NCBI GenBank assembly: GCA_002898215.1
Contig: BEIF01000001.1
Coordinates: 1,277,602 to 1,341,601, forward strand
Reading direction: 5' to 3'
DNA length: 64,000 bases
Source of the DNA: a bacterium HR29
GTDB taxonomy: Bacteria; Chloroflexota; Dehalococcoidia; Tepidiformales; Tepidiformaceae
In this document: positions 1,730 to 13,444 of the stretch, piece after piece
Layout of the letters: every line of letters starts with the position of its first letter
Position numbering within the stretch: the stretch's first letter is position 1
Notes under the pieces: model-generated
What the model was told of the DNA's origin: nothing
The model's database searches: none
Seen by the model: only the letters and a program-made list of their open reading frames with translations
Made by a program: the position numbers and the translations under genes

Positions 1730-4183
1730 GTGGGGGTCGTCTGGCTGGCGGAAGCCACGGCGGGTCGCGAGCTGCTCGGCGGGAAGGGAGCGAGCCTGGC
1801 TGCGCTGCGCCGTGCGGGGCTGCCCGTGCCCGATGGGTTCGTCGTCCCGCCCGAAGCCGCAGCGGCCGCGGCGGCAGGCGACCGCCCGACGAGGGCGGCC
1901 ATCGAGGTGGCGTGGAAGAAGCTCGCCCCCGCGGCCGAGCCGCTCGCCGTGCGCTCGTCGGCCATCGATGAGGACGGCGTCACGGCCTCCTTCGCGGGGC
2001 AATTCGAGACCGTGCTGGGCGTTCGGAGCCGGGAGGAGCTGTTCGCGGCCATCGAGCGGTGCGTCGCATCGGCCTCGGCCCAGCATGCGGAGAGCTACCG
2101 CGAACGGATGGGAAGCGTGGGCGGCGGGATGGCCGTCATTGTCCAGCGGTTGGTGGCGGCACGAGCAGCAGGTGTCGTTTTCACCTGCGACCCCGCGACG
2201 GCCGACGCATCGCGAATCGTCGTGGAAGCGGTGCCTGGGCTGGGCGACCGCCTCGTGAGCGGCGCCGAAGCGGGGGAGCGGTGGACCGTCTCGCGAGCGG
2301 GAGACGTGGTGGAACGGCCATCGCTGCCGGGGGCGCTCGACGATCACGAGGCCGCGGAGGCGGCACGGCTCGCGCTGGCAGCGGAGGAGGCGTTCGGGAC
2401 GCCGGTGGACGTCGAGTTCGCCGTGGACGCCGCAGGCCGCATCTGGCTGCTCCAGGCGCGCCCCATTACGGCGATGGGCAGCCCCCCGGGCGGGTTCGAA
2501 TTCGACACGGAAGCCTCCGAGGAGGATGAGTGGACGAGCGCGAACGTCCAGGAGGTGCTGCCTGGCCTGTTGACGCCGCTCACCATCACCCTGTTCGAAG
2601 AGACCTCCCACGAGGCCTACACCCGGAACTACCAACGGCTGCGGATCCTTCGAGCGCAGGAGTGGCCACGCTTCGTGGGGGTGTTCGGCTATCGAGCCTT
2701 CCTGAACGTGAGGGCGCTGCGCACGGTGGCCGAACGGACGCCGGGGGGCGACCCCGAAGCCCTGGAGCACCGGTATCTGGGCGGAAGCGGCGAACGTCGG
2801 CGCCTTCCGTTCCGGACCCGGCTAGGGCTCGCGGCGCACCGGCTCCGAAGCGCCACGCCGCTCCTAGCCGCCTTCCTCCGTCTCGAGCGCGCCGTCGAAC
2901 AGCTGGAACGGGACGTCGCCCGGTGGGAGAAGGCATTCCGGGCGCTGGACCCGGCCAGCCTCTCCGATGCGGAGCTCGAGCGTTGGCGGCAGCGGGCGCT
3001 ACTCTTCGCGGCCCGACGTTTCCACATCCATCTCGACGTGAGCGGGCTGGCTGGCAGCGCCTTCGACGCCGTGGGGCGGTTGCTACGGCCGGTCCTCGGG
3101 GCCGACACCGAATCGACGCTGCCGACGCTCTTCACTGGGCTACGGGAGGTGGAGAGCGCGCGGATCGCCCTGGATACCTGGGAGCTCGCCGAAGCTGCGC
3201 GGGCGTGTGGGCTGGAAGCATTGCTGCGGGACGGCGCGGTTCGTGACCCGCTCTCTCCGGAGCTGCCGCAGCCCTGGAGAGAGGCGGTCTTGCGCTTCCT
3301 CGAGCGCCATGGCCACCGCGCCGTGAACGAGATGGAGGCGTCGGCGGTCACTTGGCGGCGCGACCCCGCACCGGTGCTGGCGATGGTCCGGAGCTATCTC
3401 GACCTGCCTGCGGAGCAGGCGCCGCCGGCCGTGCTCGCCCGTCAGCAGGAGGCGCGGCTGCGGCTCACCGCCGAAGTGGAGGGGCGGATGCCCCCGCTGC
3501 AGCGCGCACTCTTCCGCTGGCTCCTGCCGCGGGCGCAGCGGTGGGTCGCCCTGCGCGAGCGCACGAAATCGCTGGTGGTGCGACAGGCGCGGCTCGCCGA
3601 CTACCTCGCGCCGGAAATCGCGAGGCGGCTGGTGAGCCGCGGGGTCATCGACCGGGAGGACGACGTCTACTTCCTCACCAACCTCGAAGTGAGCGAGCTG
3701 CTACTCGGGGCCGCGCGGCGCGACTACCGTTCCCTCGTCGCCCGGCGGCGAGCCGAACGGGAGCGCGCCCGGTATCTGGAGTACCCGGAGCGATTCCGTG
3801 GCCAGCCGGCACCACGCCCGCCCACTCCCCCGAACGACGCCCTCGAGCTGCAGGGTACGCCGGTGAGTGCGGGGTTCGCCGTCGGCCGGGCGCGGGTCAT
3901 CCTCGATCCGGAGCGCGACGGACCGCTGGAGCCGGGAGAGATACTGGTGGCGCCAGTCACCGACGCCGGCTGGACGCCGCTCTTCGCCCTCGCAGGAGGC
4001 ATGGTGGTCGATATCGGCAGCGCGCTCAGCCACGGCAGTACCGTAGCGCGCGAATACGGCCTGCCAGCCGTGACCAACGTCCGTGTCGGCACGCGCCTCA
4101 TCCGGACGGGTGACCTCGTCGAAGTCGACGGCCGCTCGGGCAGGGTACGGATCCTGGAGCGGGCCGGCGACTCCGCTCCCTAG
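1730..4183 (+). CDS. PEP synthase-like phosphotransferase, rifampicin phosphotransferase architecture
   Basis: 817 residues. The N-terminal part (about 1-250) is a PEP-synthase/PPDK ATP-grasp domain with GGKGASLA near 17, AVRSSA near 73 and WLLQARPIT at 239-247. A helical middle region (about 255-700) follows. A C-terminal swivelling His domain (about 705-817) has the phospho-histidine motif GSALSHGSTVAREYGLPAVT with His768. There is no PEP/pyruvate TIM barrel, so the order ATP domain, variable domain, His domain is that of rifampicin phosphotransferase rather than of PpsA or PPDK. The natural substrate cannot be read from sequence; rifamycin inactivation is possible but unproven. GTG start chosen from the preceding leaderless promoter. 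The 3' end overlaps the convergent aminotransferase by 4 bases. Confidence 0.85.
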   Translation: MGVVWLAEATAGRELLGGKGASLAALRRAGLPVPDGFVVPPEAAAAAAAGDRPTRAAIEVAWKKLAPAAEPLAVRSSAIDEDGVTASFAGQFETVLGVRSREELFAAIERCVASASAQHAESYRERMGSVGGGMAVIVQRLVAARAAGVVFTCDPATADASRIVVEAVPGLGDRLVSGAEAGERWTVSRAGDVVERPSLPGALDDHEAAEAARLALAAEEAFGTPVDVEFAVDAAGRIWLLQARPITAMGSPPGGFEFDTEASEEDEWTSANVQEVLPGLLTPLTITLFEETSHEAYTRNYQRLRILRAQEWPRFVGVFGYRAFLNVRALRTVAERTPGGDPEALEHRYLGGSGERRRLPFRTRLGLAAHRLRSATPLLAAFLRLERAVEQLERDVARWEKAFRALDPASLSDAELERWRQRALLFAARRFHIHLDVSGLAGSAFDAVGRLLRPVLGADTESTLPTLFTGLREVESARIALDTWELAEAARACGLEALLRDGAVRDPLSPELPQPWREAVLRFLERHGHRAVNEMEASAVTWRRDPAPVLAMVRSYLDLPAEQAPPAVLARQQEARLRLTAEVEGRMPPLQRALFRWLLPRAQRWVALRERTKSLVVRQARLADYLAPEIARRLVSRGVIDREDDVYFLTNLEVSELLLGAARRDYRSLVARRRAERERARYLEYPERFRGQPAPRPPTPPNDALELQGTPVSAGFAVGRARVILDPERDGPLEPGEILVAPVTDAGWTPLFALAGGMVVDIGSALSHGSTVAREYGLPAVTNVRVGTRLIRTGDLVEVDGRSGRVRILERAGDSAP

Positions 4184-5355
4184 GCGAACGCCCTGCGGAG
4201 CCTTCCGACCGCCTCCTCGAGCGTCGCGCGGGACTTCGAGAAGGTGAAACGGACCGAGGTTCGCCCAAATTCGCCGTGGCGGTAGAAGCTGGAGCCAGGG
4301 ACGGGTGCGACGCCGACCTTCTCCGTGAGGAAGCGGGCGAAGGCGACGTCGTCGCCCTCGAAGGCGAGCGGCGAGAAGTCGGCCATCACGTAGTAGGCGC
4401 CCTCGGGGGAGTGACACCGGAACCCGGCCGCGCGCAACCCCTCCACCAGGAGGTCGCGGTTGGCAGCGTACATGGCTTCGAGTTCCCGGTAGTATCCGCG
4501 GGCGTCCGCCTCCTCGATGGCCACGGCAGCGGCTTCCTGCAGTGGAGCGGGGGCACCCACGGTGAGGAAGTCGTGCACCTTCCGGATGGCCGCCGAGAGG
4601 TGCGCCGGAGCGAGCACGTAGCCGATGCGCCAGCCGGTGACGCTGAACGTCTTCGAGATGCCGGAGATGGCAACCGTTCGTTCGCGCATGCCCGGAAGGG
4701 ACGCGAGCGGCACGTGCCGGCGGCCGTCGAAGACAATGTGCTCGTAGATTTCGTCGGTGACGGCGAGGCAGTCGAACTCGTGGCATAGCGAAGCGATGAC
4801 GTCGAGTTCGGCCCGGGTGAAGACGCGGCCGCACGGGTTGTTGGGAGTGTTGACGATGACCGCCTTCGTGCGGCGCGAAAAGGCGGAGCGAAGCTCCGCT
4901 GGGTCGAAGGTGTACTCCGGGGGCCGCAGGGGAACGAACACCGGCACGGCACCGCTCATCGCCGCGTCGGGCACGTAGTTCTCGTAGAACGGCTCGAAGA
5001 CGACGACCTCATCGCCCGGCTCCACCAATGCGAGGAGCGAGGCCATCATCGCCTCGGTCGCACCGCAGGTGACCGTGATCTCGGTCTCCGGGTCGTAGGA
5101 GAGGCCGTAGTGGCGGGCCGTCTTTTCGGCGATGGCGCGACGCAGCCTGGGGGAGCCCCACGTGATGGCGTACTGGTTCAGGTCCGCCTCGATGGCCGCG
5201 ATGGCCGCGCGCTTCACGAACTCGGGCGCAGGGAAGTCCGGGAATCCCTGGGCCAAATTGATGGCGCCATGCTCCATGGCGAGGCGCGTCATTTCTCGGA
5301 TCACCGACTCGGTGAAGACAGCGGTGCGGCCGGCAACAACGCTTCGCTGCAGCAT
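4180..5355 (-). CDS. PLP-dependent aminotransferase, class I/II
   Basis: 391 residues of fold-type I aminotransferase. The N-terminus INLAQGFPDFPAP and the loop NTPNNPCGR (169-177) are typical of the group containing kynurenine, glutamine and methionine aminotransferases. Asp201 and Tyr204 (DEIY) contact the cofactor, and Lys235 in SGISKTFSVTGWRIG forms the Schiff base. The exact amino donor is not determinable. Transcription probably starts at the leaderless promoter at 5362-5390. Upstream on the same strand is the double CoA transferase, 53 bases away, but the separate promoter suggests independent expression. Confidence 0.9.
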   Translation of the reverse strand: MLQRSVVAGRTAVFTESVIREMTRLAMEHGAINLAQGFPDFPAPEFVKRAAIAAIEADLNQYAITWGSPRLRRAIAEKTARHYGLSYDPETEITVTCGATEAMMASLLALVEPGDEVVVFEPFYENYVPDAAMSGAVPVFVPLRPPEYTFDPAELRSAFSRRTKAVIVNTPNNPCGRVFTRAELDVIASLCHEFDCLAVTDEIYEHIVFDGRRHVPLASLPGMRERTVAISGISKTFSVTGWRIGYVLAPAHLSAAIRKVHDFLTVGAPAPLQEAAAVAIEEADARGYYRELEAMYAANRDLLVEGLRAAGFRCHSPEGAYYVMADFSPLAFEGDDVAFARFLTEKVGVAPVPGSSFYRHGEFGRTSVRFTFSKSRATLEEAVGRLRRAFA

Positions 5356-5361
5356 GGCGGG

Positions 5362-5390
5362 ATTGTACGCCCGCCGCGCGCCCCGGTCAG
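5362..5390 (-). promoter_or_regulatory. Leaderless-type promoter of the aminotransferase gene
   Basis: Minus-strand CTGACC (5385-5390), 17-base spacer, TACAAT (5362-5367), then 6 bases to the ATG at 5355. The hexamers are identical to those in front of the RDD gene at 239. Confidence 0.6.
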
Positions 5391-5408
5391 GTTCCGCGGT
5401 GCTTCGCG

Positions 5409-7862
5409 CTAGTCGAGCGCGCCCGAGGCGACGTACTCCACGACCTCGTCGTCGCTGAGGCCGAGGATCTCCCGGAGCACGAACTCGTTGTGCTGGCCGA
5501 AGGTCCCGCCCGGCCAGCGGACTTCGGGCGGCGTACGGCTCAGGAGCCAGCGGGCGTTCTCCACGGGAATCGGGCCTAGCTCGGGGTGGGTGACCGTTAC
5601 GAAATGCCCCCGGTGGGCCAGCTGCGGGTCGGCGAAAGCGTCGGCGCTGCTGGAAGCGCGGTGGGCCGGGACGCCCGCCGCGTTCAACAGCTCCTCGATC
5701 TCCGCCGGCTCCCGCTCGGCCGTCCAGGCGGCGATGCCCTCGTCAAGTTCGTTCCGGCGGGCAAGGCGGCCCTCCACCGACGCGAGCTGCACATCCGCCG
5801 CCCAGTCATCTCGCCCGAGGACACGGCAGAGCGCCTGCCATTGGACATCGGTGCGGCAGACGATCGCCACCCAGCGGTCGCTTCCGGCAGCGGGATACAC
5901 GCCATGGGGCGCGTACCAAGGAGAAGCGTTCCCCTGCCGCTGCCAGAGCCGCCCGTTCACAAGGTAGTCGAGGAGAGCAGGCCCGAGGAAGTGGATGGCG
6001 GCCTCCGCCTGCGAAAAGTCGATGTGGAGTCCCTCCCCCGTCCGGCGCCGGTAGTCGAGGGCAGCCATGATGGCTGCTACCTCGAACTTCGGCACCACGT
6101 AGTCGGTGTACGCACCGGCGGGACCCGCAGGCGGTCGGTCGGGCCAGCCGGCCAGCTCTCCGAACCCAGCGAGCTGGGCGCCCATGGTTCCGTATCCGGC
6201 CAGGGTCGCATACGGCCCGGTCTGCCCGTTGAGGCAGGAGCTGAGCATGATGATGTCGGGCTTCACCTTGCGGAGGTCGTCGTACGAGAGGCCCATCTTG
6301 GCCATCGACCCGGGCGTGAAGCTTTCGCAGACCACGTCGGCCCATTGCACCAGGCGCAAGGCAAGCTCGCGCCCCTTGGGATGCAACAGGTTCAGCGTCA
6401 TCGTGTACTTGTTGGCGTTCACCGTGTGGTGAGCACCGGTGCGCTCGGGGCCCGGCTGGCGGTCCTTGAAGGGCCCGATGGTGCGGACGGTGTCGACGCG
6501 CGTCGTGCTTTCCACCCGCACCACGGTCGCGCCGTAGTCCGCCAGGGCGCGGGTGGCCCACGGTCCGGCGACGACCCACATGAAATCGAGGATCTTCACC
6601 CCTTCCAGCGGCGGCCTGAGCGGGGTGGGTGAAGGCGGGTCGACCGCAGCGGCTGCTGGTACACGCTGAGCCTCGGCCTTCACCTCGGCGGTGTGTTCGC
6701 CAAGGAGGGGTGGGCGCCGCCGGGTCTCCATTGGCGCCTTCGAAAAGCGTGCCCAGGGGCCGTGATAGCGAACCTTCGTCCCGAGCTCAGGGTGTTCGAC
6801 GTCGACCCAGTAGTCGCGGGCCGCAAGCTGCTCCGAGTTGGCGAGGTCTTCCATGGTGGCCACGGGAACGATGAGCAGCCCCCGCTCGAAGGCGAGCTTG
6901 AAGAGCTCGGCTTTGGTGTGCCGTTTGGTGAACTCGCTGATGAGCTGGTTGCAGCGGATGAGCTCGCTGATCGGTTCCTGGCCGGAGAGGAGGAGGTTGG
7001 TGTAGCCGATCCAGTCCTTGTCGCGCGTCGCCTCGTCGACGATGCCCTCCTCGTACATCACCTCCATGAGCCGGCGGGAGAAGGGGCCCATGGCGTTGCC
7101 GAAAAGGAACGTCACCGAGACGTAGCCGTCGGCGGCGGGGTGTACGAACTTCAGCGGGAAGGGACCGAACCGCACGCCGCCAGCAAGGCGCTGCGTCTCC
7201 ACCTCGCCGAGACCGTGTGCGAGGACGGTCGCTTGCGTGGCGGCCATCGCCGAGGTCTGCGCGGAGACGTCCACGAACTGCCCCGCGCCATCGCGGACGG
7301 CGCCGGCGAGGGCCACGAGAGCGGCTGCCGCAGCATCGGCGCCCGCGTGCAGCATCGCCTGGGGAACGGCGAGCGCCACCGGAGGGCAGTCATCGTCCCC
7401 GGTCATCAGAAGCACGCACGAGGACGCGAGGGCGGTCAGGTCGGCCGCGGGCCAGCCAGCCTTGGGACCGGTCGAACCGTAGGGGGTTATCGCGACGTAG
7501 ACGAGCCGCGGGTTGATGCGGGAAAGGGCCTCGTAGCCGAGACCCCACGAATCCATCGTGCCGGGCGCGAACGACTCGATAAGGATGTCGGCCGTCGCGA
7601 CAAGGCGGCGGAACGTTTCGCGGTCGGCGTCGCTGTTGGCGAGGTCGAGCACGACGCTGCGCTTGTTGCGATTGAACGACCAGAAGTTCAGGCTGCGGTT
7701 CGGGTCCCGCTCGTCCCGAAACCAAGGCCCGATTCGGCGCAGCTCGGCCCCGCCCGGCGGCTCGACAAGGATGACGTCGGCGCCCAGATCGCCGAGCATC
7801 TGTCCGGCGATCATGGCGCCGTGATCCGTGAGATCGAGGACACGGTACGGCTGAAGAAGCAT
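5409..7862 (-). CDS. Tandem CaiB/BaiF (family III) CoA-transferase fusion
   Basis: An 817-residue protein made of two family III CoA-transferase units, about residues 1-400 and 415-817, each beginning with the characteristic (R/K)(V/I)LDL/F segment and the ADY/LGADVI..VE strand. Such enzymes move CoA between a CoA thioester and a free acid through an aspartyl-CoA anhydride. The first unit keeps the expected Asp (Asp141 in GWPAADLTALAS). At the equivalent place the second unit reads AGYGTMGAQLAG, with Gly558 where Asp is usual. Only one active site may therefore be competent, unlike a usual homodimer. Substrate unknown. A promoter and an upstream dyad (7899-7955) suggest its own regulation. 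Confidence 0.88.
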   Translation of the reverse strand: MLLQPYRVLDLTDHGAMIAGQMLGDLGADVILVEPPGGAELRRIGPWFRDERDPNRSLNFWSFNRNKRSVVLDLANSDADRETFRRLVATADILIESFAPGTMDSWGLGYEALSRINPRLVYVAITPYGSTGPKAGWPAADLTALASSCVLLMTGDDDCPPVALAVPQAMLHAGADAAAAALVALAGAVRDGAGQFVDVSAQTSAMAATQATVLAHGLGEVETQRLAGGVRFGPFPLKFVHPAADGYVSVTFLFGNAMGPFSRRLMEVMYEEGIVDEATRDKDWIGYTNLLLSGQEPISELIRCNQLISEFTKRHTKAELFKLAFERGLLIVPVATMEDLANSEQLAARDYWVDVEHPELGTKVRYHGPWARFSKAPMETRRRPPLLGEHTAEVKAEAQRVPAAAAVDPPSPTPLRPPLEGVKILDFMWVVAGPWATRALADYGATVVRVESTTRVDTVRTIGPFKDRQPGPERTGAHHTVNANKYTMTLNLLHPKGRELALRLVQWADVVCESFTPGSMAKMGLSYDDLRKVKPDIIMLSSCLNGQTGPYATLAGYGTMGAQLAGFGELAGWPDRPPAGPAGAYTDYVVPKFEVAAIMAALDYRRRTGEGLHIDFSQAEAAIHFLGPALLDYLVNGRLWQRQGNASPWYAPHGVYPAAGSDRWVAIVCRTDVQWQALCRVLGRDDWAADVQLASVEGRLARRNELDEGIAAWTAEREPAEIEELLNAAGVPAHRASSSADAFADPQLAHRGHFVTVTHPELGPIPVENARWLLSRTPPEVRWPGGTFGQHNEFVLREILGLSDDEVVEYVASGALD

Positions 7863-7898
7863 CGCGACCCCCCGGATGCAGACGCTGTGTGGCGTCCG

Positions 7899-7928
7899 AT
7901 TCTACGGGAGGGGCGAACGTCGCGTCAG
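7899..7928 (-). promoter_or_regulatory. Promoter of the CoA-transferase gene
   Basis: Minus-strand CTGACG (7923-7928), 18-base spacer, TAGAAT (7899-7904). The predicted start point is about 30 bases before the ATG at 7862. Confidence 0.5.
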
Positions 7929-7932
7929 GCTT

Positions 7933-7955
7933 CTGACACCAATGATTCGTGTCAG
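7933..7955. promoter_or_regulatory. Inverted repeat upstream of the CoA-transferase promoter
   Basis: Perfect 7-base arms CTGACAC (7933-7939) and GTGTCAG (7949-7955) around a 9-base centre. The repeat lies directly after the flavin-reductase stop codon and 4 bases upstream of the predicted -35 of the CoA-transferase gene. No T-run follows on either strand, so an operator is at least as likely as a terminator. Confidence 0.4.
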
Positions 7956-7956
7956 C

Positions 7957-8439
7957 CTAACCGCCGTAATCCCAGCCGAGCTCCTGGAGCGTCCAGGCGG
8001 GCTCCCCGCTGGGGACACCGCCGTTCACCACCTCGCCCACGTACTGGACGTGGTCACCCGTCTCCCGCTTCTCGACGACGCGGCACTCGAACCAGGCGAC
8101 GGCGCCGGCATAGACGGGCGCGCCCGTTTCGGGGCCGGGGAAGTACTCGTACTCTCCCAGCTTGTTGCCCACGACCTCCGCCGGCTTGGTGAAATGGGAA
8201 ACGACGTCTTCCGAGTCGGCAGGTAGCAGGCTGATGGAGAAGACGCCGCCATCGTCGATGAGGCGACGGGTGTAGGCGTCCCGCTCGATGAAGACCGTGT
8301 AGAGCTTCGGCTCGAAGGAGCATTGCGTGCCCCAGTTCGCCGTCATGAGGTTGAGGCGGTCGCCGGCGCGCGAACCGACCAGGAAGATGCCGTAGGGATG
8401 GCGCAGCAGGGCGGCGGAGGCCGCTTCGAGGTCGCCCAT
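7957..8439 (-). CDS. Flavin reductase-like (FMN-binding split-barrel) protein
   Basis: 160 residues matching the flavin-reductase-like/flavoredoxin family: an early segment YGIFLVGSRAGDRLNLMTAN, then QCSFEPKLYTVFIERDAYTRRLI and a later FECRVVEKRETGDHVQYVGEV strand. These proteins bind FMN and act as NAD(P)H:flavin oxidoreductases or electron carriers. Length is typical of the single-domain form. A Shine-Dalgarno-like GAGGAGC lies shortly before the ATG. It sits between sucD and the CoA transferase on the same strand, but gaps of 67 and 94 bases leave co-transcription open. Partner enzyme unknown. Confidence 0.82.
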   Translation of the reverse strand: MGDLEAASAALLRHPYGIFLVGSRAGDRLNLMTANWGTQCSFEPKLYTVFIERDAYTRRLIDDGGVFSISLLPADSEDVVSHFTKPAEVVGNKLGEYEYFPGPETGAPVYAGAVAWFECRVVEKRETGDHVQYVGEVVNGGVPSGEPAWTLQELGWDYGG

Positions 8440-8506
8440 CGGTGCACGCTCCTCGTGGGGTGTCAGCGTCAGTGTACCGCCCCCAGAGGCCCGTGCCGGA
8501 AGCTTG

Positions 8507-9391
8507 TCAGAGGAGACCCCGCTCCTCGAGGGCGCGCTTCATGGTGAGGCCGATTTCGGCCGGAGAATCAGCCACGTAGGCACCCGCTGCCCGGAGCGCG
8601 GCCTTCTTGTTCTCGGCACGCGCGTCGTCGCCCGAGATGATGGCGCCCGCGTGGCCCATCCGGCGTCCCTCGGGCGCGGTCGCGCCGGCGATGAACGCGA
8701 CAACCGGCTTCTTGACGTGTTCGCGGATGTAGGCCGCGGCTTCCTGCTCGGCGCTGCCACCGATTTCGCCCACGAGGACGATGGCATCGGTCTCCGGGTC
8801 TTCGTTCAGCATGCGGACGGCTTCCGCCTGGCGGGTGCCGATGACGGGGTCGCCGCCGACGCCGATGCAGGTGCTCTGACCGATGCCGAGCTTCGTGAGC
8901 TGGGCGACCACCTCGTACACGAGCGTTCCCGAACGGCTGACCACGCCGACGCGGCCCGGCATGAACACATCGACCGGCATGATGCCAGCGCGTGCCCGCG
9001 CGCGCGGCGTGATGACCCCGGGGCAGTTCGGGCCGATGAGCACGGTGGAGGAGCCGCGAAGCGCCGCCTTCACCTTCACCATGTCGAGGACCGGAATGCC
9101 CTCGGTAATGCAGACGATGAGCGGAAGCCCCGCCGCCGCTGCCTCGAGGATGGCGTCGGCCGCGAAGGGCGCCGGCACGAAGATCACGCTGGCGTTGGCG
9201 CCGGTCTTCCGCACCGCTTCGTCGACGGTGGTGAAGATGGGCACGCCGTCCTGCTCTTCGCCGCCCCGGCGGGGATGGATGGCAGCCACCACCTTCGTCC
9301 CATAAGCGATGGAGCGGCGCATGTGGTTCGTGCCTTCGGTTCCAATGCCCTGCACGAGCAAGCGGGTGTTCTCATCGAGGAGGACAGCCAT
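8507..9391 (-). CDS. sucD: Succinate-CoA ligase, alpha subunit
   Basis: 294 residues with the full SucD layout: an N-terminal CoA-binding Rossmann domain starting [16 protein letters not shown], the [10 protein letters not shown] loop, [10 protein letters not shown], and the phospho-histidine site [10 protein letters not shown] with His247. With a beta subunit it interconverts succinyl-CoA and succinate while making ATP or GTP in the TCA cycle. The beta subunit gene, usually directly upstream, is not in this window; the preceding gene is tgt, 78 bases away. Related acyl-CoA ligases such as malate-CoA ligase share the fold, so the substrate is inferred. Confidence 0.9.
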
Positions 9392-9469
9392 GGGGACTCC
9401 CGAGGAAGGATTGGTGGGCGAACGAGCGGATCGGCACCGCCCGGTGGCCCAGCATACCGCGCCGCTGCG

Positions 9470-13444
<3,975 letters not shown>

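Follow-up and report, generated by a model that had tools for sequence, protein, structure and literature searches.

Among family III CoA-transferases, BbsEF, a benzylsuccinate CoA-transferase that takes its CoA from succinyl-CoA, is the described system closest to the protein reported here. As compared from PDB titles and aligned sequences, both associate two different family III subunits, of which only the BbsF-like one carries an Asp in the nucleophile column (D178 in BbsEF), but BbsEF consists of two separate chains whereas the protein described here is a single one. According to the title of PDB entry 9fol, BbsEF bears a CoA adduct on D178; this position is occupied by Asp (motif YTDH) in one chain and by Ala in the other, the names BbsF and BbsE being those that we presumptively assign to these chains. 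DddD, a DMSP CoA-transferase/lyase, differs by combining transferase and lyase activities; we take its active Asp to be Asp602, in the second domain, and a literature search on Asp602 in a CoA-transferase context found no paper, as judged by title. In Endozoicomonas, residues 1-416 and 439-821 of DddD form two CaiB-type domains (PMC7174347). Another report (PMC6006322) regards DddD as an outgroup relative to the one-domain and two-domain enzymes and describes PtmU4, in which two tandem domains form one chain and Asp430 of the C-terminal domain is required. PtmU4, likened here by its description, differs in catalysing sulfur transfer for thiocarboxylic acids. One-sided pairs are already known, therefore, as a heterodimer (BbsEF) and as fused two-domain enzymes (PtmU4 and DddD).

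By contrast, formyl-CoA transferase (Frc), CaiB and YfdE, which have the same fold and the same nucleophile column, are homodimers of identical subunits with an Asp in each, whereas only one domain of the pair carries it in the fused protein. For YfdE, the published study indicates that D173 is the point of covalent attachment and that a loop of the partner subunit, opposite the Asp, appears to set the specificity (PMC3720670). Furthermore, SAR202 bacteria are described (PMC5395668) as carrying many CaiB/BaiF paralogues, including a DddD-like subset. A search for literature on fused, heterodimeric class III enzymes found no paper, and a presentation of fused proteins as joined BbsE and BbsF with reciprocal Asp/Gly was not found in print, which says little as subscription papers were mostly beyond reach.

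The window, i.e. the whole stretch of 64,000 nucleotides that was analysed, carries on its minus strand a gene that forms one frame, intact over 817 codons and organized as follows:

5409..7862, minus strand: fused two-domain family III CoA-transferase of 817 amino acids (ATG at 7862, stop codon at 5409-5411)
6672..7862, minus strand: first (BbsE-like) half, residues 1-397, without catalytic Asp (domain limits, 9fn0_A match, tree)
6630..6671, minus strand: linker, about residues 398-411, Ala/Pro rich and unconserved by eye (domain limits)
5412..6629, minus strand: second (BbsF-like) catalytic half, residues 412-817 (domain limits, 9fn0_B match, VIA-align)

The domain PF02515 (CoA_transf_3) is found twice in the protein (630 bits for a Pfam cut-off of 23.3, E 1.6e-189), as expected from a family III CoA-transferase, and NCBIfam equivalog models of succinyl-CoA enzymes leave it far under their cut-offs (397.1 vs 750). 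Taking together the data presented below, the protein is very likely a BbsEF-type family III CoA-transferase whose different subunits are joined in one chain, with a single active site on the second half.

The position of this site was examined in an alignment of 240 domains, comprising those cut from the loci as well as E. coli CaiB, YfdE and Frc and both 9fn0 chains, after removal of the duplicate loci L001-L020, of identical rows and of domains that were short or weak. CaiB D169, Frc D169 and YfdE D173 share one column, in which the fused protein has D587 in its second half and M170 in its first; the catalytic Asp typical of family III enzymes is thus present in the second half only. A HMMER alignment likewise pairs D178 of the BbsF-like chain with D587. 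In the column of Met170, the first halves of relatives mostly have F, W or Y, and BbsE has Tyr171. The residues involved are:

6102..6104, minus strand: Asp587, predicted nucleophile, forming the aspartyl-CoA intermediate (column of CaiB D169, Frc D169, YfdE D173 and BbsF D178; 59 of 59 rows)
7353..7355, minus strand: Met170, first-half residue in the nucleophile column (240-domain alignment)
7440..7442, minus strand: Asp141, earlier proposed nucleophile, in the column of Frc Glu140, at a helix start (alignment, AF2; invariant in 59 of 59 rows)
6189..6191, minus strand: Gly558, second half, in the column of Frc Glu140 (alignment; invariant in 59 of 59 rows)

The original prediction had correctly read residue 141 as Asp and residue 558 as Gly, but had proposed Asp141 as the aspartyl-CoA site and the second half as the altered one owing to Gly558. 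The alignment with formyl-CoA transferase that it recommended overturns both proposals: Asp141 and Gly558 share the column of E. coli Frc Glu140, 29 residues before the nucleophile column, and another Asp of the second half, D587, aligns with the nucleophiles of CaiB, Frc, YfdE and BbsF. The idea of an asymmetric fused pseudo-heterodimer in which one half carries the nucleophile is retained, with the roles exchanged, as the altered site is that of the first half (M170). The residue to mutate in order to test the nucleophile is therefore Asp587, and an Asp141 mutant would not test it.

This asymmetry is conserved well beyond the window. In a set of 59 fused rows (the protein of the window and 58 relatives that are 40-63% identical to it), D141, G558 and D587 are each invariant. 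The nucleophile column holds Asp in all 74 second halves of fused orthologues and in none of 76 first halves (one of which is truncated there), in 13/13 second and 0/13 first chains of split orthologues, and in 16/16 second and 0/17 first domains of more distant pairs, these counts not being independent as the sets compared here include near-copies. Single-domain proteins have Asp in 19 cases out of 19, as do all ten rows left out of the tables (nine single-domain proteins and one fragment). Three of the 17 distant first domains (L105, L122 and L063_1619m) have Glu in the nucleophile column; this suggests that first domains are not all necessarily dead and that these three might be partly active.

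The column of Frc Glu140 holds Gly in 74/74 second halves and Asp in 75/76 first halves of fused orthologues, and Asp or Glu in 17 of 19 single-domain proteins; it is looser in the second domains of distant pairs (Gly in 10, Asp in 3 and Ala in 3 of 16). The Gly thus travels with the catalytic BbsF-like lineage and is no mark of a dead site. A further difference between the halves concerns the column of Frc Phe97, which corresponds to the following residue:

6318..6320, minus strand: Phe515, aromatic position that should pack against the adenine of CoA (alignment)

This column, in which we infer that Phe101 of mesaconyl-CoA transferase also falls, a residue reported to stack on the CoA adenine (PMC9196870), is aromatic in 74/74 second halves but in only 15/76 first halves of fused orthologues. 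Outside the fused orthologues, first and second domains are less clearly distinguished (split first chains 7/13, distant first domains 6/17, distant second domains 12/16, single-domain proteins 14/19). At two of the canonical CoA-contact positions, Frc 96 and 98, the second halves have Ser, and Ser, Thr or Ala, respectively, so that their contacts with CoA must partly differ from those of Frc. Within the 59 rows, 21 of 390 columns are invariant in the first half and 35 of 390 in the second, and the mean pairwise identity is 47% and 51%, respectively; in 1436 of 1711 row pairs, the resemblance is closer over the second half. Judging from these sequences, the first half is under selection and not decaying.

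The two halves have distinct closest relatives among solved structures, which are the two chains of BbsEF. Indeed, phmmer gives 9fn0_A as the best solved relative of the first half (E 2.3e-65) and 9fn0_B as that of the second (E 1.9e-80). In a 103-row tree obtained by a quick search with SH-aLRT only, which includes some long rows and leaves 44 of 100 inner branches open, 42 of 44 first-type rows, including BbsE, group together with a support of 94 (not starred), and 42 of 44 second-type rows, including BbsF, fall in one starred group along with one single-domain row. The protein therefore combines one BbsE-like and one BbsF-like domain, with the nucleophile confined to the latter (D587 vs M170), as in BbsEF; it departs from BbsEF in being encoded by a single 817-amino-acid ORF, although its relatives include split versions.

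A fold model, also recommended by the original prediction, was computed by AF2 on the 59-row alignment and is confident (mean pLDDT 94.2, pTM 0.95); the high pTM suggests that the halves would be held in a fixed arrangement. Helices start at 586 and 141 in this model, and a coil spans 400-422, around the linker. The top three Foldseek rows are BbsEF chains, with 36-39% identity in BbsEF rows; Foldseek also gives 9fn0_A and 9fol_A at 37% identity, the matched half not being specified. VIA-align, the list of which is filled by one domain, superposes the second half on 9fol_D with a Z of 31.1 and an rmsd of 1.4 over 403 residues. The next match of this half after BbsEF is human SUGCT (succinyl-CoA:glutarate CoA-transferase, 9br6; Z 29.2, rmsd 1.8 over 399 residues), a single-domain protein whose dimer is presumably symmetric, unlike the two fused domains found here.

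By comparison with these enzymes, the halves are predicted to interlock like the two subunits of an ordinary dimer. Asp587, as sole nucleophile, would attack the acyl-CoA donor, probably succinyl-CoA, giving an acyl-aspartyl anhydride and then an aspartyl-CoA; the CoA would finally be handed to another carboxylic acid. The first half, whose own vestigial site would be inactive, would complete the one active site of the chain by a small-domain loop around the following residue, and so probably shape the acid pocket:

7188..7190, minus strand: Arg225, start of the first-half small-domain loop expected to face Asp587, its position being deduced (59 of 59 rows)

This role of the loop is proposed by analogy with the partner-subunit loop of YfdE, according to which the first-half loop starting from Arg225 should line the Asp587 site. 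The chemistry, the presence of one active site per chain, the donor and the role of the loop are likewise what we would expect from the enzymes compared.

Three other explanations were considered. That Asp141 is the nucleophile and that Gly558 makes the second half dead is now very improbable: the invariance of both residues in the 59 rows indicates that the asymmetry at that column is real, but the column is that of Frc Glu140 and not of Asp169, and BbsE too has an Asp there (Asp142, aligned with Gly149 of BbsF), yet the adduct of 9fol is on residue 178, an Asp of the BbsF-like chain that is replaced by Ala in the BbsE-like one. It is more conceivable, albeit still unlikely, that the same Asp chemistry leads to another outcome, either a CoA-transferase/lyase reaction like that of DddD or a transfer involving sulfur or another acceptor like that of PtmU4. 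PtmU4 is likewise fused with its Asp in the C-terminal domain (PMC6006322), and PMC5395668 mentions a subset of SAR202 paralogues that have DddD as top Swiss-Prot match, a lyase role being suggested for some. However, the best structural and sequence matches of the protein are the BbsEF chains, DddD and PtmU4 being set apart by their descriptions only. Lastly, the 26 PF02515 matches found in this 2.3-Mb genome make redundancy possible, and the gene might be a decaying or non-functional paralogue; this hardly fits with the intact 817-codon frame or with the invariance of D587 and of 35 second-half and 21 first-half columns in 59 rows whose identity goes down to 40%, and is scarcely credible. 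A BbsEF-type transferase with its single active site on the second half is thus the reading adopted below.

The genes located upstream point to a possible source of the CoA donor:

8507..9391, minus strand: sucD (succinyl-CoA ligase alpha), second gene upstream, which may supply the CoA donor (NCBIfam NF004230, 415.3 bits vs a cut-off of 336)
7957..8439, minus strand: flavin reductase-like gene separating sucD from the CoA-transferase gene (PF01613, E 1.6e-32)

The genes for SucD, flavin reductase, CoA-transferase and an aminotransferase follow one another in this order on the same strand, separated by 67, 94 and 53 bases. Among the 37 genomes of the family, 36 have one sucD match each and one (G027) has none at E 1e-60. 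In at least five of the 37 (G000, G005, G011, G019 and G024), the own genome included, the gene for such a CoA-transferase is found no more than 3.2 kb from sucD; in G005 the flavin reductase and aminotransferase genes are kept as well, and G024 has only the first half of the CoA-transferase, at a contig end. By analogy with BbsEF, this linkage makes succinyl-CoA a plausible donor, but it could also be inherited rather than functional. The sole SucC-type match over the cut-off in the own genome is at C1:894549-895247, about 390 kb from sucD. No benzylsuccinate-pathway family stood out in the Pfam matches of seven ORFs of the window, including the CoA-transferase.

A conserved neighbourhood was also considered as a guide to the substrate and was rejected, as shadow ORFs and near-identical Acidimicrobiia prevailed when flanking ORFs were clustered. 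Pfam was run on 114 of 235 candidate neighbour ORFs, namely the one or two closest on either side, the six of the window being excluded; two loci (L070 and L085) dropped out of this survey, their core ORF not having been picked. No constant partner was found among these 114 ORFs, no family having more than five members; the commonest are luciferase-like monooxygenase (5), enoyl-CoA hydratase (5) and acyl-CoA dehydrogenase (4). In a DNA search of window positions 4000-9500 against plasmids, four of the matches listed cover the sucD region and one the aminotransferase. On plasmid 2 of Aromatoleum aromaticum EbN1, typed as conjugative, a split pair (L119, 7741-12405) follows UbiX- and UbiD-like genes, which suggests that the substrate of this pair is an aromatic acid.

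The own genome carries many other copies. By position, its 26 PF02515 matches correspond to nine single-domain genes, eight pairs and one fragment. The Asp is present in all nine single-domain copies, and in all eight pairs it is absent from the first domain and present in the second. Four pairs are fused (the gene of the window, L104, L105 and L107) and four are split (L103, L106, L108 and L109). Two fused pairs, L104 (1485-3800, on C2 of the own genome) and L063 (1619-4366), which are the two that fall outside the BbsE and BbsF groups of the 103-row tree, have no Asp in the first domain and an Asp in the second, and the tree places both halves of each among single-domain enzymes; they probably represent a separate origin of the same asymmetry. 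Another protein of L063 (17154-18593) is a single-domain protein that lies inside the BbsF-like group and has the Gly and the Asp, as catalytic halves do.

The relationships between fused and split forms were analysed in a tree of 67 of the 83 pairs, 16 near-copies being dropped and the truncated split loci L041 and L090 being absent. The fused/split label changes at least three times on this tree. With L051 set aside, a helix-like tail, recognized by eye, ends the first chain in 13 of 13 split orthologous loci, whereas the fused linkers are devoid of it; among related split pairs, the tail is present in L109 and L119 but not in L103. The shared tail favours the split form being the older one, with several fusions, whereas a split clade of 10 rows nested among fused rows favours fission.

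The analysis ties a set of fused family III CoA-transferases to the BbsEF heterodimer, for which a structure with a covalent CoA adduct is deposited. BbsEF thus offers a concrete template for asking how specificity is set by the first half, in a genome with 25 such domains and a fragment. A more general scheme can be put forward tentatively, although it is rather doubtful as a whole. The labour would be divided for good, the second half being in charge of the chemistry and the first, evolving faster, providing specificity through a loop that lines the sole active site. In bacteria with many pairs, fusion would occur repeatedly and independently, ensuring that each catalytic half meets only the specificity half that belongs to it. 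A second mark of the division, reciprocal in nature, would be the column of Asp141 and Gly558, where the first half keeps an acidic residue and the second has a fixed Gly.

At three loci, the two halves are divided by a single in-frame stop (TAG or TGA), with a start codon directly after it or close to it (L029, 2737-2739; L041, 2749-2751; L053, 9240-9242). In L051, an orthologue that is open elsewhere, the second half contains an in-frame TAG (9429-9431), which may reflect a broken gene, an error of assembly or readthrough. Finally, L091, a record labelled as a Klebsiella pneumoniae MAG, carries a fused copy that is 59% identical, a label that looks doubtful for that gene.
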